35,865 bases of DNA from Lachnospiraceae bacterium (GTDB taxonomy: Bacteria > Bacillota > Clostridia > Lachnospirales > Lachnospiraceae). A program made the position numbers and the translations under genes. The notes below the pieces were generated by a model, which was given only the letters and a program-made list of their open reading frames with translations, had not been told where the DNA came from and did no database searches. Location: contig JAJPXG010000001.1 in the NCBI GenBank assembly GCA_021205565.1, forward strand, positions 1 to 35,865, in the 5' to 3' direction. Each line of letters opens with the position of its first letter. Positions within the stretch are counted from its first letter, which is position 1. This document shows positions 2,456 through 35,641 of this stretch, one piece after another.

Positions 2456-2609
2456 GCGGGGAAATATATAAACTGTTTCGCGATTTTTGCACGATGGAGA
2501 TGAGACTATTGGCAATCGTGGAAGCCTCTGCTGAACACGATTGACGCGTCCATAGGCTCATCGGAATGCCCCGCGCAGCATGAGCGAAACAGTTTATATA
2601 TTTTTCCGC
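2456..2609 (+). ncRNA. Structured intergenic element, copy 2
   Basis: 26-bp closing stem 2456-2481 / 2584-2609 (20 bp perfect, two G.U wobbles) around the conserved 75-nt core. Confidence 0.7.
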
Positions 2610-7598: not shown

Positions 7599-8636
7599 AT
7601 GGAAGAAAAGGTATTAAACAATCGGAAAAACGGGATGGCCTCAATGCTGCTGTTTATCGTCCTGTATGCCGCGGCGATCGCGCTCGTGGTGGTTGCCGGC
7701 ATACGAATTGCGGAGGAAACGTGGGGCGCGGCGGAGGTTGTCCTCATGGTGGTGGGAATCATTTATCTGTGCCTGGGCTGGATTCCCTTCCTGGGACTGA
7801 AGGTCTTAAAACCGCAGGAGGCCATGGTGCTGACCCTGTTCGGCAAATATGTGGGCACCATCCGGGATGCTGGATTTTATTTCGTCAATCCGTTCTGTGT
7901 CAGCGTCAACCCGGCGGCGAAGACCCGCTTAAAGCAGAGCGGCGATGTGGATCACTCCGGCCCCATGGCTATTTTAAATTAGGCGGACAATGGTCTGCAG
8001 CTGAATATCGGCAGTGACGGCGGCAAAAAGGTTTCTCTGAAAATCATGACCTTAAACAACAACCGCCAGAAGATCAACGATGCCCTGGGCAATCCGGTGG
8101 AAATCGCTATCGCGGTGATGTGGAGAGTGACGGACACGGCGAAGGCGGTCTTTAATGTGGATAATTACAAAGAGTACCTGTCTCTGCAGTGCGACAGCGC
8201 GCTGCGCAATATCGTTCGGCTCTATCCTTATGACGTGGCGGAGAATATTGATACCACCGGGGACGGAATCGCTGACGAAGGAAGTCTGCGCGGCTCCAGC
8301 GATATTGTGGCGCAGCGAATCCGGGACGAGATTCAGAGCAAGGTGCAGGAGGCCGGTCTGGAGGTAATTGAAGCCCGGATTACTTACCTGGCCTATGCGC
8401 CGGAGATTGCGGCGGTAATGCTGCAGCGTCAGCAGGCTTCGGCCATCATTGACGCGAGAAAGATGATTGTGGACGGCGCAGTGGGCATGGTCGAGATGGC
8501 GCTGGAGCGCTTAAATGAGAAGCAGACCGTTGTGCTGGATGAGGAGCGCAAGGCAGCCATGGTTTCCAACCTGCTGGTCGTGCTGTGCGGCAACCGGGAC
8601 GCGCAGCCCATTGTAAATTCAGGAAGCTTATATTGA
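7599..8636 (+). pseudogene. SPFH/band-7 domain protein, interrupted by an in-frame TAG at 7980-7982
   Basis: ORFs 7599-7982 and 8046-8636 are in the same frame; readthrough gives ...GPMAILN*ADNGLQLNIGSDGGKKVSLKIMTLNNNRQKINDALGNP..., a continuous SPFH-like protein. Confidence 0.8.
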
Positions 8637-9264: not shown

Positions 9265-9444
9265 TATGATACAAGGGACCAAAGATCAAAAATCGGATGC
9301 TTGCATTCGTATTTTTGACCTTGGGGACCGCAACAAACATGAGGAAGGAGCAAATTTGACCGTTCTTCAGGTCAAATTGTGCGGATTCCGAATGTTTGTT
9401 AGGATTGCGAAAGCGTATTTTGCGGAGCAATCCGTGTATCATAC
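9264..9444. repeat. Multi-branched palindromic element between the T-box terminator and pheS
   Basis: Outer perfect 10-bp arms GTATGATACA (9264-9273) / TGTATCATAC (9435-9444) enclosing three hairpins (about 9275-9329, 9332-9400, 9402-9433). Confidence 0.75.
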
Positions 9445-9476
9445 ATGGATTTAATAAAAGAAAGCAGGAGACGATT

Positions 9477-10523
9477 ATGCAGGAGACAAACAGACTGGCG
9501 GAAAACATCGCCGCCATCAAGCAGAAAATCCAGGATGGCGCAGAGAAGCTCGACAGCTCCAGGGCGGTTTACGAATTTAAAAAGAGCTTCCTCGACTCCA
9601 AGGCCGGCGAGATCAGCCAGCTGATGAAGGAGATGAAAAACATCCCCAAAGAGCAGCGCGCTGACTACGGCAAGGCGGTCAACGAACTGAAGGAATGGGC
9701 CGTGCAGGTCTTTGACGAGATGGATGTGAAGCTAAAGGAGGCGGAGTTAAAACGCCGCTACGAGAAGGAAAAGATCGACGTGACCATGCCGGCGGTTGAA
9801 ACCGAAACCGGAAACCTTCACCCCATCACCCAGATTATTGAGCAGCTGATTGACGTATTCGCGGGTATGGGCTTTGAGGTGTACGAGGGTACCGAGGTCG
9901 AGAACGACTACTATAATTTCACGGCGCTCAATACGCCGCAGGATCATCCGGCCAGAGACATGCAGGATACCTTCTATCTCTCCCCGGAATTTCTGCTGCG
10001 CACCCAGACCTCCGCGGGTCAGATTCACGTCATGGAGAATAAAAAGCCTCCTATTAAAATTCTGTCCCCGGGCCGCGTTTTCCGTTCCGACGATGACTCC
10101 ACCCACTCTCCGATGTTCGGCCAGATGGAGGGTCTGGTAGTGGACGAGCATATCACCTTAAGCGACCTTCAGGGCATGCTGGATTTATTTGTGCAGAAAA
10201 TTTACGGCGAGGGTACCTACACCCGCCTGCGCCCCTCCTACTTCCCGTTCACGGAGCCTTCCGTGGAGGTCGATGTCAGCTGCTTCGAGTGCGGCGGCAA
10301 GGGCTGCAGACTCTGCAAGGGCACCGGCTGGATTGAAATTCTCGGCGCCGGCATCGTGAATAAAAAAGTGCTGGAGAACTGCGGCATTGATTCTGAGAAA
10401 TACAGCGGCCTCGCTTTTGGCATCGGCTTAGAGCGCACAGCCATGCTTAAATATGGAATCAATAATATTAAAACATTATTTGAATCTGATCTGCGCGCGT
10501 TGAAACAGATTGATGATAAATGA
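9477..10523 (+). CDS. pheS: Phenylalanine--tRNA ligase alpha subunit
   Basis: Class II aaRS motifs ([54 protein letters not shown]); start moved from 9396 to ATG 9477, preceded by AGCAGGAG. Confidence 0.95.
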
Positions 10524-14794: not shown

Positions 14795-16087
14795 ATGGAG
14801 ATTATCATGACTGAAAAAATATTAAAGGTATTAAAAGAGCAGCAGATCGACCAGTATTTGCTGCAGGAGACGACCAAGGAGAGCGTCGAGTTATTTTTCA
14901 TCAAAAAGAACCTGGACATGAGGCGTGAGGAGAATGTGCACAGCTGCTCCGTCACGGTGTATCAGGATTATGAGAAGGACGGCGTAATGCGTAAGGGCGA
15001 GGCTGGTTTCTTAGTGGAGGCGGCCACCACCGAGGAGGAGATCGCCGAAAAGTGCAAAAAGGCCTATATGGCGGCCGGTTTTGTGGCGAACCGTTATTAT
15101 CCGCTGGCCGAGGGTACGAAGCAGGAGCCTGTCGTTGTGGAGAGCGACCTGACGAAGGTGTCATTAAAAGAGGCCGCGGGGATCATGACCAAAGCGCTCT
15201 TTGCGGCAGACGACCAGGAGAAGGTATTTTTAAACTCCGCGGAGCTTTTTGTGGAGAAAAATGCCTGCCATATCGTCAATTCCAACGGTGTGGACGTGGC
15301 CTACGTCAAATATAACGTGAACGGCGAGCTGGTGGCGCAGTGCAAGGAGCCGCAGGATGTGGAGACGCACGAGCAGTTCTCTTATGACAATCTAAACACG
15401 GAAGCGCTGACCGCCCTGGTAAAAGAGGCGTTAAACATGACGAAGGACAGAGCTGTGGCGACCGAGGCGCCCACTACCGGCACCTACGATGTGGTACTCT
15501 CCGATGGCTACGCGTCCAGAAATTTCCCTTGTTATCAGGATCGCTGATCGGGAATAAGCATTTTCCAGCACTACTCGGATTTCAAGGTGGGCGATTTCGT
15601 CCAGGGCGATCCGGCTGAGGTGAAGGGCTGTCTGCTCAATGTGGACTATGTGCCGACCGCGCCCTACAGCGAGGAGGGCGTCGCCATGAGACAGCTGCCC
15701 TGCATTCAGGACGGCGTATTTCAGAACATCCAGGCCGATGTGCGCTTCGCCTCTTATCTGGGCGTACCCACCACCGGCCAGTACAGAAAGATGTCCTGCA
15801 AACCCGGCAACGTCAGCTTTGAGGAGATGAAAAAGCATCCCGGCCTCTATGTGGTGAATTTCTCTGACTTCCAGATGAACCCCATGAGCGGCAACTTTGG
15901 CGGCGAGATCCGCTTAGCCTATTTAAACGACGGGGAGAAGATCACCCCGGTCACCGGCGGCTCCATCAACGGCAGTATTTTCGAGGCGCAGAAGGACTTC
16001 GTCTTCTCACAGGAGACACAGGAGACCTCCAATTTCAGCGGTCCGAAGGCGGTATTGCTGAAAAATGTGAATGTCGCGGGACGGTAA
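14795..16087 (+). pseudogene. TldE/PmbA-like partner interrupted by an in-frame TGA at 15545-15547
   Basis: ORFs 14795-15547 and 15587-16087 share the frame; translation ...YASRNFPCYQDR*SGISIFQHYSDFKVGDFVQGDP... continues the TldE-like fold. Confidence 0.8.
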
Positions 16088-31247: not shown

Positions 31248-31484
31248 CAGAACATTTTCAGTGGTCAGATGGCTTTACAACACAGGACGGTGCGCAGGCT
31301 AACGCCCGCCGCCCGTCCATAGACTTTCATCGTATGCAAGGCTGGCATATTGGTCTGGAGCAATATGCCGCCTTCGTATAGATTCCCTGAAACGAGAACA
31401 GTTCATCTCCATATCGCATGGAGTGTGCTCGCACTTCGTTTCGGAAAACACATTTTCAATATTTTTATGGAGGAAACGAAAACC

Positions 31485-33074
31485 ATGCGAAAAATGAAGA
31501 AACTTGCCAGCCTGCTGCTGGCGCTGGTTATGGTGTTGTCGCTGAGCGTCACTGCGATGGCGGATGAACCGACGACGTATACCATTACCATCAATAACTC
31601 CACTGAGGGTTATGAGTATACTGCATACCAGATTTTTAAAGGCGATCTGCTCGTGACCACGACTACAGATGCCGATTCTGGCGAGACCACCACAACAACG
31701 ACATTGTCCAATGTTGAGTTTGGCAGTGCTTTAAGTGCAACTGACCAGACTGCTTTGCTGGCCTATTATGCGACAACATTAGGCACTGACTATGAAAGTA
31801 GTGCTGCTGGCTTGGCTGCAGCTCTTGCTGAAGGAAAAATTACTGCTGCTGCATTTGCGGCTCAGGTTGCGACTTACGCATTAACATCCGCTGGAACTTC
31901 CACCTACAACAAAAATACTTCTGATCCGGATGCTTCCAATTATACAGTTAATGTTACTGGAGCGGGCTACTATCTGGTTAAGAACACCAATGTACCCGAT
32001 GAGGATGGCGCATATACAAGCTATATTCTGTCGGTTGTTGCAGATGTGGCTGTAGAAGCCAAGGCAGATATCCCTTCCTCTGACAAAACGGTTGGCGATG
32101 TCAATGATTCTGACAACACTACTGCACAGGGAGATACTGATTCTGCTGATTACGATATTGGCGACAGTGTTCCCTTCACTCTGACAGCTACTTTGCCTAC
32201 CAACTATGGTGACTATACAACTTATCAGCTGACATTTCACGATACCCTGTCCTCTGGCCTGAGCTTTAATAATAATGTAGTTGTTAAGGTGGGAACTACC
32301 GTTGTTGCTCCTTCCTGCTATACAGTCGCTACTGGCTCAGATTTGACGGACACCTGCAGCTTTGAGGTTCAGATCAGTAATACTAAGGCCTTAACAGATG
32401 CCGATGGTAATGCCATTTCCCTGAGCGCTGGGGATACTATCACTGTTGAATACACTGCAACTTTGGAAACTGGGGCTTCTTTTAAAGAGACCAACAAGAT
32501 GCACATTGAATACTCCAATAACCCCAATGATGGCAGCAGTGGAGAAACCGGCAATACTCCTGATGATACCACAACTGTTTTCACTTTCACTCTGACCGTG
32601 AATAAGGTTGATGCGAAGAAAAATCCTCTGAAGGGTGCCGGATTCACTTTATATAAGTATGATGCCGATACGCAGGCCTATGTTGCAGTAGGCTCCGAAG
32701 TTAAAGGCACTGATCTGACTTCCTTTACATGGAAAGGTCTGGATGATGGTCAGTATAAGCTGAAAGAAACCACAACTCCTGCTGGCTATAACACCATGGA
32801 TGATGTTGAGTTCTATATCGTGGCTACCCATACTGAAGATGGGCTGACTTCCTTGAAGGTAACGTCGGACGCTGCAGGCACGACTGAGATTGATGGTTAT
32901 ACCGAAAGCCTTACTGATGGCACCATCACTGCTGACATCGTAAACTACAGTGGTTCCATCCTGCCCAGCACTGGTGGTATCGGTACCACGATCTTCTATG
33001 TGGTTGGTACACTCCTTGTTCTTGGCGCAGCTGTAGTTCTGATTACCAGAAAGCGCATGAGCAGAGAGGTGTAA
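31485..33074 (+). CDS. LPXTG-anchored major pilin (SpaA/FctA-like backbone)
   Basis: Signal peptide MRKMKKLASLLLALVMVLSLSVTAMA; E-box-like 'YKLKETTTPAGY'; sorting signal 'LPSTGGIGTTIFYVVGTLLVLGAAVVLITRKR'; RBS ATGGAGG upstream of ATG 31485. Confidence 0.93.
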   Translation: MRKMKKLASLLLALVMVLSLSVTAMADEPTTYTITINNSTEGYEYTAYQIFKGDLLVTTTTDADSGETTTTTTLSNVEFGSALSATDQTALLAYYATTLGTDYESSAAGLAAALAEGKITAAAFAAQVATYALTSAGTSTYNKNTSDPDASNYTVNVTGAGYYLVKNTNVPDEDGAYTSYILSVVADVAVEAKADIPSSDKTVGDVNDSDNTTAQGDTDSADYDIGDSVPFTLTATLPTNYGDYTTYQLTFHDTLSSGLSFNNNVVVKVGTTVVAPSCYTVATGSDLTDTCSFEVQISNTKALTDADGNAISLSAGDTITVEYTATLETGASFKETNKMHIEYSNNPNDGSSGETGNTPDDTTTVFTFTLTVNKVDAKKNPLKGAGFTLYKYDADTQAYVAVGSEVKGTDLTSFTWKGLDDGQYKLKETTTPAGYNTMDDVEFYIVATHTEDGLTSLKVTSDAAGTTEIDGYTESLTDGTITADIVNYSGSILPSTGGIGTTIFYVVGTLLVLGAAVVLITRKRMSREV

Positions 33075-33281
33075 TTTGTCAGATTGTACATAATGAGAAA
33101 CGATATGCACTCGTTTACATTACGCGCTTGATTTATGAAATACCTGTCCCGGCCTTTGGGCTGGGATGGGTATCCCCAAGAATTTGGTTCTCTGTTTGTT
33201 GTTCGCTGCCCGTCGCCGACCAGACGGGGGCAGGTAGCTAAGAGCAGGCAGATATCTGACTGAGGAGAGACTGATGGAAAC

Positions 33282-34241
33282 ATGAAGCAATATCGGGGAA
33301 AAAGACAGAAGAGAAAAAGCGACCGTCTGACGACTATTATTCTGGTTTGCATATTTTTCGCCGGCGTCATTATCCTGGCGTATCCTTCGGTGAGTAACTG
33401 GTGGAATGGACAAGTTACAACGCGAGCGGTTGAGAATTATGAAGCAGCAATAGCTGCCATGCAGGAGACGGATTATACATCTTATTTTGAGGCGGCGCAG
33501 GCCTACAACGAAACGCTTGCGAAAATCGGCTCCGCCAAAACAATTACATCTCCGGATCTGGTGGACGAGGACTACTGGGATCTGCTGGACGTCAGCGGTA
33601 CCGGCGTGATGGGGTACGTTACGATTGACAAAATCAACGTCCAGCTGCCGATTTACCATGGAACGGATGCGGGGGTTTTACAGATTGCGGCCGGACATCT
33701 GGAGGGCACGAGCCTGCCGGTGGGAGGGGAGAGCACTCACTGTGTGATTTCCGCACACAGAGGTCTTCCGAGCGCTTTGCTCTTCACCAACCTTGACCAG
33801 CTGGAGGTCGGCGACACCTTCACCATCACTGTTTTAAATCAGGTGATGACCTACGAGGTGGATCAGATATCCATTGTGCTGCCGGATGAGCTTGAAAACC
33901 TCTATATTGAGGAAGGCAAGGATTACTGCACGCTGATGACCTGTACCCCCTACGGGGTCAACAGCCACCGGCTTTTAGTGCGGGGCGTGCGTGTGGAGAA
34001 CGCGACACAGACGCTGATCCATGTGACCGCGGAGGCCTATAAGGTTGCACCGCTTCTGGTCGCGCCGGTGCTGGCGGTGCCGCTGGTGGTGATTTTGCTG
34101 ATATGGCTTATGGTCACGACCAGGAAGGGCAGAAAGCCTCGCAAAGCCGCAAGAAAGAGGCAAAGCGTTCATGAATGGGAAACCCAATCAAACAGATTTG
34201 ACAACCCTGTCAAACATGGAGGGAATGATGATGAAATATAG
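33282..34241 (+). CDS. Class C (pilus-type) sortase
   Basis: Catalytic 'HCVISAHRGLPSALLF' and 'CTLMTCTPYGVNSHRLLVRG'; N- and C-terminal TM segments. Confidence 0.93.
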   Translation: MKQYRGKRQKRKSDRLTTIILVCIFFAGVIILAYPSVSNWWNGQVTTRAVENYEAAIAAMQETDYTSYFEAAQAYNETLAKIGSAKTITSPDLVDEDYWDLLDVSGTGVMGYVTIDKINVQLPIYHGTDAGVLQIAAGHLEGTSLPVGGESTHCVISAHRGLPSALLFTNLDQLEVGDTFTITVLNQVMTYEVDQISIVLPDELENLYIEEGKDYCTLMTCTPYGVNSHRLLVRGVRVENATQTLIHVTAEAYKVAPLLVAPVLAVPLVVILLIWLMVTTRKGRKPRKAARKRQSVHEWETQSNRFDNPVKHGGNDDEI

Positions 34242-34986
34242 GAATGGACTTGTAAAAAAAGCTGCCGCCCTTTTGCTGGGACTGGCCATGACTGTCGCCA
34301 ATATGACGGTTGTGAATGCTGCCACAGCACCGGACCTGGATCTGACCAAGACCGGTTCGATTGCGCTGACGCTTAAGGATGCGGATGGTGTGACAGTATC
34401 CGGCGGAGCCGTGACTGCCTATGAGGTGGCGAAGCTGTATCTGGATGACGGCAACATGGCCTACGCGTACACGGACGGCTTTGGCGACTGCACGGTGGCG
34501 CTCGATGTGACGGATACCACACTGGCCTCCTCGCTTGTCTCCTACATGAGCGGGTGCACAATCACCGGCACCGAAAAGAGCGTAGCCTCTGACGGAACGG
34601 TCAGCTTCACTGATCTGGAGCTGGGTTTATACCTGATTGTACAGACGATTGAATCCGCGGATTATGAGACCATAAGCCCCTTTGTGGTGACTCTGCCGAT
34701 GGAAGAGGACGGTGTGTGGGTATATGCTGTGAACGCCAGTCCCAAGGTTGGCACCGTGACGCTGACGCCGGAGGAACCGGGCGAGCCGGAAGAGCCGGAG
34801 GAGCCGACAGAACCGGAGGAACCAGTGGTGCCGGAAACGCCGCAGACACCGGCGGAGCCGATTTTGCCGCAGACGGGACAGCTCAACTGGCCGGTACCGG
34901 TGCTTTTGATCGGCGGTTTCATCCTGCTGATTGCGGGCGTTGTGTTAAAGAATTCCGATAAAAAGAACAGACGCTATGCCTCATAA
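34231..34986 (+). CDS. Minor pilin / LPXTG surface protein with Pro/Glu-rich wall-spanning repeat
   Basis: Signal peptide MKYRNGLVKKAAALLLGLAMTVANMTVVNA; 'PEEPGEPEEPEEPTEPEEP'; 'ILPQTGQLNWPVPVLLIGGFILLIAGVVL'. Start 34228/34231 preferred, overlapping the sortase stop. Confidence 0.88.
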   Translation: MKYRNGLVKKAAALLLGLAMTVANMTVVNAATAPDLDLTKTGSIALTLKDADGVTVSGGAVTAYEVAKLYLDDGNMAYAYTDGFGDCTVALDVTDTTLASSLVSYMSGCTITGTEKSVASDGTVSFTDLELGLYLIVQTIESADYETISPFVVTLPMEEDGVWVYAVNASPKVGTVTLTPEEPGEPEEPEEPTEPEEPVVPETPQTPAEPILPQTGQLNWPVPVLLIGGFILLIAGVVLKNSDKKNRRYAS

Positions 34987-35641
34987 GAACAAAAGAGCTG
35001 TGTCCAGACGCAGGCGCAGGAGGCTGGGGACGCTGTTCATAGCGTTGGGCAGCCTGATGCTTTTAGGAGCGGTCGGGCTTTTGGCCTATAATGCGTGGGA
35101 CGACTGGCGGGCCGGTACGGCGGTGGTGAAAATCCAGGATGCGCTGGACTCAGCCATGGAAGACCGCAATACGACGTTTTATCTGTATGACAACAACTCG
35201 CAGAAGCGGGATGCGGATGACACCGAAATGGCTACCATCGAGATCGACGGTTACGACTATATCGGGACATTGTCAATTCCTAGATATGGGCTGGAGCTGC
35301 CGGTTATGGCGGACTGGTCCTACGCGGGGTTAAAAATCGCACCTGGGACCTACAGCGGCTCGGTGTGGAGTAACGACCTGGTGATCTGCGGACATAATTA
35401 CGAGCGTCATTTCGGGTATTTAAAAGACCTTGAGGAGGGCGATACGATCACCTTCACGGATGTGGACGGCAACGTGTTCTACTACGTGGTGGAGGAGGTT
35501 CTGACGCTGGAGCCGACGGCCATTGAGGAAATGCTTGATCAGGGCGGAGTTAACTGGGATCTGACCTTATTTACCTGTACGCTGGGCGGGCAGGCGCGCG
35601 TGACGGTGCGGTGCAGCCGGGTGGCGATGGTGGAGTCGTGA
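34976..35641 (+). CDS. Second sortase (class B/D-like)
   Basis: N-terminal TM; 'NDLVICGHNYERHFGYLKDL' catalytic His region; 'DLTLFTCTLGGQARVTVRCSR' catalytic Cys/Arg. Confidence 0.88.
   Translation: MPHKNKRAVSRRRRRRLGTLFIALGSLMLLGAVGLLAYNAWDDWRAGTAVVKIQDALDSAMEDRNTTFYLYDNNSQKRDADDTEMATIEIDGYDYIGTLSIPRYGLELPVMADWSYAGLKIAPGTYSGSVWSNDLVICGHNYERHFGYLKDLEEGDTITFTDVDGNVFYYVVEEVLTLEPTAIEEMLDQGGVNWDLTLFTCTLGGQARVTVRCSRVAMVES

Follow-up and report, generated by a model that had tools for sequence, protein, structure and literature searches.

Dispersed palindromic elements with covarying arms in Lachnospiraceae: a probable MITE-like family

Two hairpin elements in the window and their anatomy

The window analysed here is a stretch of 35,865 nucleotides from a gut bacterium of the Lachnospiraceae (G000:C46:1-35865), and its first base is also the first base of the contig. 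It contains an ABC transporter operon, correctly labelled as such in the first-pass annotation, that comprises a PF00005 ATPase, two BPD_transp_1 permeases and an SBP_bac substrate-binding protein. A Clostridiales-1 RNA (Rfam RF01699, 103.9 bits) lies at 9267-9441 on the forward strand and overlaps the start of an ORF at 9396-10523, which we take, from reading its sequence, to encode a phenylalanyl-tRNA synthetase alpha chain. At 7599-8636 and at 14795-16087 one gene is apparently split into two ORFs in different frames. By eye these are presumably a band-7-like and a TldE-like gene, and the splits seem to be either real frameshifts or assembly errors. A presumed pilin and sortase gene cluster, recognised by eye from LPSTGG and LPQTG motifs, is located at 31350-35641.

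The first-pass annotation had described a structured element with compensatory base changes at two places in the window. Its 75-nt blocks, 2-76 and 2494-2568, do align without gaps and are 84% identical. Checked letter by letter, both of its compensatory pairs are exact (A21/T51 becomes C2513/G2543, and C15/G62 becomes T2507/A2554), and the stem said to close copy 2 (2456-2481/2584-2609) is a 26-bp helix. The copy 2 hairpin folds at -77 kcal/mol, compared with -49.2 +/- 4.5 for shuffled sequences (z -6.13; 0 of 200 shuffles as good). A covariance model of the family matches copy 2 at G000:C46:2472-2598 (E 2e-37) and copy 1 at G000:C46:1-80. Both copies are in sense orientation, and copy 2 is located between two permease genes of one operon. 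The parts of the two copies are as follows.

2445-2621, + strand: copy 2, whole hairpin, including the outermost 6-bp pairing 2445-2450/2616-2621 (from the fold, the helices and the covariance model)
2456-2481, + strand: copy 2, closing stem, 5' arm; 26 bp, pairs with 2584-2609; of different sequence but still paired in other copies
2584-2609, + strand: copy 2, closing stem, 3' arm (from the fold and helix list)
2489-2493, + strand: copy 2, helix P2, 5' side; pairs with 2572-2576 with one A·C mismatch (11-copy consensus structure)
2572-2576, + strand: copy 2, helix P2, 3' side (consensus structure of the 11-copy alignment)
2494-2498, + strand: copy 2, core internal loop, 5' side, ATGGA; conserved in cross-genus alignments
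2499-2504, + strand: copy 2, helix P3, 5' side, GATGAG; pairs with 2557-2562 and is followed by the constant A2505·G2556 mismatch
2557-2562, + strand: copy 2, helix P3, 3' side, CTCATC (letter-by-letter check)
2563-2568, + strand: copy 2, core internal loop, 3' side, GGAATG; conserved in cross-genus alignments
2506-2520, + strand: copy 2, 5' sides of P3b (2506-2509/2552-2555) and P4 (2513-2520/2536-2543) (alignment and letter check)
2521-2535, + strand: copy 2, apical loop GAAGCCTCTGCTGAA; contains a 3-bp hairpin, 2523-2525/2530-2532
1-80, + strand: copy 1, core (covariance-model match); 5' arm absent, the contig beginning at base 1
84-132 (extent approximate), + strand: copy 1, optional insert module AAGGCATAAGTTCGATTACGGAAATC..., common to other copies
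133-168, + strand: copy 1, second GCAC and 3' arm of the closing stem, GTGAGACAGTTAATGCCTTGCCCCGCG (comparison with other copies)

Because the contig starts at window base 1, copy 1 is without its 5' arm and its closing stem is not visible here; a complete orthologue is found in G008 (L160). The insert of copy 1 separates the core from the 3' arm, and the same structural place is occupied in L022, L238, L249, L261, L263 and L268. Elements of this kind may explain assembly breaks at such sites in these genomes, copy 1 itself being cut by the contig end.

From the outside inwards, the element consists of terminal repeats, a closing stem, an internal loop, P2, a second internal loop, P3, an A·G mismatch, P3b, P4 and an apical loop. 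The outer internal loop reads GATTTTT / GTATGAG, or AATGGA. The second reads ATGGA / GGAATG and is followed by P3 (GATGAG/CTCATC) and the constant A·G mismatch. The apical loop is GAAGCCTNTGCTGAA in most genera. The loops are the conserved part, and the closing stem varies from copy to copy. P4 and the closing stem are sometimes wholly different between copies, with the pairing still intact. The P4 of L018 (GGGAAAATG/CATTTTCCC) differs in sequence but is paired, the entire helix of the P4 region differs and yet pairs in L018, L014 and L022, and L010 has a closing stem of unrelated sequence that still pairs. Optional hairpin inserts occur at fixed positions, one before P4 and one 3' of P2, as in copy 1 of the window. 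At two orthologous pairs of sites (L014/L226 and L176/L230) whole apical modules are different and the outer arms are kept, which looks like conversion between copies. The hairpins are mostly 150-350 bp long in the window's genome, and they have no transposase gene inside.

Distribution and mobility of the family

Both copies in the window are real, but the element is not limited to two: a covariance model (R1, built from 11 copies) gave 18 matches in the window's genome, and a DNA search of the same genome identified about 19 distinct places. The same model finds 10-21 copies in most sister species; 2 of 9 sister genomes are without any copy, and a fragmentary one has just one. In a sample covering the Lachnospiraceae, the element is present in 7 of 149 other genera, three of which have 8-23 copies. 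In a sample covering the order, the element was present in 5 of 296 genomes, each of which belongs to the Lachnospiraceae. Among the matches listed in a pattern scan of named genomes, model-confirmed copies are found essentially only in Lachnospiraceae-type genomes (Roseburia, Blautia An249, Lachnospira, IMSAGC_002, 28-4, 526-35 and others), together with a few bins otherwise labelled. No copy is carried on the plasmids searched. An unannotated 4.5-kb faecal phage record, MT839189.1, has near its end (bases 20-98) a partial, 78% match to 80 nt within the core of one of the young copies described below. Among elements of all genera with two co-directional neighbours, 72 run antisense to the flanking genes and 37 in the sense direction, as counted from crude gene calls with orthologues not collapsed. 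Known Rfam families do not account for the element: at the gathering threshold no Rfam family matches the copies in the window, and copy 2 has no match up to E = 10. The family was not found in the literature and Rfam searched; it is new to these databases and is comparable to known interspersed palindromic transposable elements.

In the window's genus, most copies are common to several species at the same intergenic site, and within one genome no two copies come close to identity from end to end. Of eight sister species, two have a small 5' remnant at the copy-2 site, three a 3' remnant and three nothing, and at other sites the element is missing in close relatives. Judging by these comparisons, the copies of this genus are old and are decaying freely. 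Young copies are found in other genera. One Roseburia bin has about 12 copies that are ~95% alike. The young copies of this bin and of several other species are 232-237 bp long, are bounded by GATTCGGGTGTCAAAAGCC...GGCTTTTGACACCCGAATC and have conserved terminal inverted repeats (TIRs) of 17-21 bp, with the TIR GATTCGGGTGTCAAAAGC in 18 young copies of several species. They are flanked by 7-bp direct repeats, which match at a mean of 4.24 of 7 positions compared with 2.72 expected (0 of 1000 permutations as high, p < 0.001); duplication lengths of 4-9 were tested and 7 stands out. Perfect 7-bp target duplications are CTATTAC (L048), CTATAAG (L071) and TTTATAT (L092). Terminal repeats and 7-bp duplications of this kind are the mark of a transposon that relies on a transposase provided in trans. 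The copies of the window's genus have ends that differ from those of the young copies and are weaker, and a search for target duplications around them gave a weak signal only, among many offsets.

No transposase partner or autonomous relative with the same ends was found in the element loci examined or in plasmids. None of the high-copy genomes G004, G006, G091, G105 and G116 has PF01797 (Y1_Tnp), so the element does not need a Y1/RAYT transposase as its partner; a REP/RAYT origin was rejected in this sense. A larger mobile unit was considered in G091, where four loci have an upstream kilobase in common, but this is probably not a partner gene. At the two loci inspected (L214 and L218) it is opposite-strand coding sequence for paralogous proteins with a signal-like start.

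Covariation of the arms and the level at which pairing is kept

In model-fitted alignments, where fitting inflates the pairing and covariation figures somewhat, 96.3% of cells are paired in the other genera and 95.5% in the window's genus. Both sides have changed in 32 of 37 pairs in the former and in 27 of 37 in the latter, and the covariation scores are 0.531 and 0.382. Shuffled controls reach 0.165 and 0.145, and slid partners at most 0.126. An unfitted alignment of 11 copies already has double changes in 31 of 53 pairs. The covariation first noticed between two copies is significant in the larger alignments and far above shuffled controls; it is overwhelming and strictly Watson-Crick. Although Rfam does not contain the family, a covariation screen would accept it as a new structured RNA.

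RNA selection tolerates G·U far above A·C, whereas selection or copying at the DNA level treats both alike. The isolated arm mismatches of 183 elements, whose arms were aligned without any RNA model, comprise 64 G·U and 61 A·C; an earlier count with slightly longer arms gave 68:60. As a control, 27 tRNAs of two species in the window's genus have 21 G·U and 2 A·C in their acceptor and T arms. The two spectra differ with a Fisher p of 2e-4, for counts in which related copies are not independent. Among the 183 elements, the G·U to A·C ratio did not vary detectably with the orientation of an element relative to co-directional neighbours. In the model-fitted alignments, where G·U is favoured, the count was 150:108, with 21:5 in one core helix, so the core may have a weak component of RNA-level selection.

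Orthologues of the element differ by paired changes that come in blocks and by coordinated indels. L179 and L181 differ by three paired changes within eight bases, and L177 and L244 by six paired changes and zero single-arm changes. Behind the 3' arm that matches its 5' arm, L009 has another one that looks older, and L252 has an apparent second 3'-arm end. These duplicated 3' arms may be read as fold-back copying. In the genus G116, perfect pairing of the arms continues outside the core for up to 104 bp, or for 115 bp with two mismatches included. Because G·U equals A·C, paired changes occur in blocks, indels are coordinated and perfect arms extend over ~100 bp, the pairing appears to be kept at the DNA level. 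For the same reasons, and because the family is a dispersed, mobile and decaying repeat, selection on an RNA is unsupported. The first-pass annotation had proposed a selected RNA or a DNA hairpin. Its observation that pairing is kept as the sequence changes holds, and the DNA hairpin was the better half of the proposal.

Interpretation and likeness to known families

We propose, with a probability of about 0.68, that the elements of the window belong, as old copies, to a MITE-like family (miniature inverted-repeat transposable element) with arms kept complementary by template switching. The unit would be a non-coding palindrome, ~180-240 bp in length and more in certain genera, that combines a conserved core with terminal inverted repeats and depends for its spread on a trans-acting transposase. 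Template switching in replication creates and repairs hairpins and gives multi-base compensatory changes (PMC8794818). In the present family, replication would switch template inside the hairpin so that one arm is copied from the other (quasipalindrome correction). Matching substitutions and indels on both arms would then arise in single events and mimic RNA covariation without RNA selection. Such switching is probably at work, to go by the footprints that it appears to have left. As a guess, the conserved core and ends may be what the transposition machinery recognises. That the arms are continually rewritten from each other at the DNA level, which would yield hundreds of copies with textbook covariation without RNA selection, is a tentative claim that we place a little short of an even chance. 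Against the MITE reading, the core loops are conserved across genera beyond the needs of a passive passenger.

A genuine structured RNA, multi-copy and either cis-regulatory or trans-acting, would be selected for its fold and would bind a protein or ligand through loops that stay conserved while the stems vary freely across genera, as is seen here. The constant A·G mismatch, the very strong covariation and the retention of copies at orthologous sites in several species are also consistent with such an RNA. It is nevertheless unlikely: G·U is not favoured over A·C as it is in tRNAs, the neighbouring gene and the orientation are inconsistent, copies decay into remnants, arms are perfect over ~100 bp in G116, and the young copies are transposons with target duplications. 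A two-copy regulatory element of the ABC operon was rejected, as copies occur throughout the genome and the eight sister species have remnants or nothing at the copy-2 site. Recruitment of the element as an ERIC-like hairpin for mRNA processing or stability, with copy 2 tuning the two permease genes that it separates, has the position of copy 2 within one operon and the described ERIC precedent (PMC2229807) in its favour. We regard it as quite improbable, given that the same gene pair exists without the full element in eight sister species and that the family's orientation to co-directional genes is mixed.

The hairpin could also be the substrate of a structure-reading enzyme, as in single-stranded-DNA mobile elements (IS200/IS605-type or RAYT Y1 transposases, attC recombination), in which case the DNA pairing itself would be selected. 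This would accommodate a conserved unpaired core with free stems, the symmetry of G·U and A·C, and a core that is kept while the ends differ between lineages. However, Y1_Tnp is absent from the high-copy genomes named above, and the target duplications and conserved TIRs of the young copies point to a conventional double-strand transposase, and we regard this reading as improbable. Insertion into pre-existing host terminators, hinted at by the extra outer pairing, was rejected as well: no T-tracts were seen by inspection, and the arms of the young copies belong to the element itself.

The MITE-like reading places the family beside several known ones, from which it is set apart by RNA-like covariation of the arms combined with a DNA-like mismatch spectrum. 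BOX and RUP of Streptococcus pneumoniae are likewise short non-coding repeats scattered through the genome, which probably move non-autonomously and at a low rate; they are tightly folded with paired terminal repeats, BOX has modular internal parts, and they are sometimes co-transcribed (PMC3049150). They belong to another host family, and their terminal repeats are different as far as described, whereas in the Lachnospiraceae element the arms covary between copies and the unpaired core is the conserved part. ERIC and YPAL of enterobacteria are intergenic palindromes of 127-168 bp that form one long stem-loop with target duplications, and YPAL targets lie in or beside dyad symmetry (PMC2229807); the extra outer pairing here may suggest likewise. 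The likeness is by description, in a different phylum, and YPAL duplications are 3 to 26 bp, in contrast to 7 bp in the young lineages here. Bcr1 and other stem-loop families of Firmicutes are intergenic repeats, 147-167 bp in Bacillus, with one predicted common secondary structure (PMC2267715); they are from a different genus and are again likened by description. Quasipalindrome hairpins produced by template switching have the same multi-base compensatory changes, with one arm copied off the other (PMC8794818), but were described in the histories of RNA genes and not in a dispersed mobile family. Should template switching be what maintains the pairing, covariation together with structure would be no proof of RNA function. 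If the reading is true, the mobile palindrome would be a natural counter-example to covariation as proof of functional RNA, and its many orthologous hairpins are offered for testing the template-switch model.

Two further arrangements were observed at element sites. L065, L068, L119, L233 and L246 are element pairs in inverted orientation ~200 bp apart, of which sister species keep just one or the other element, in either orientation. L307 (G003) and L308 (G009) represent a second hairpin family of the same design, with a core AAGGCGAAGATTAACGAT...GAGCCG and variable, perfectly paired arms, and they occupy sites where sister species have the present element.
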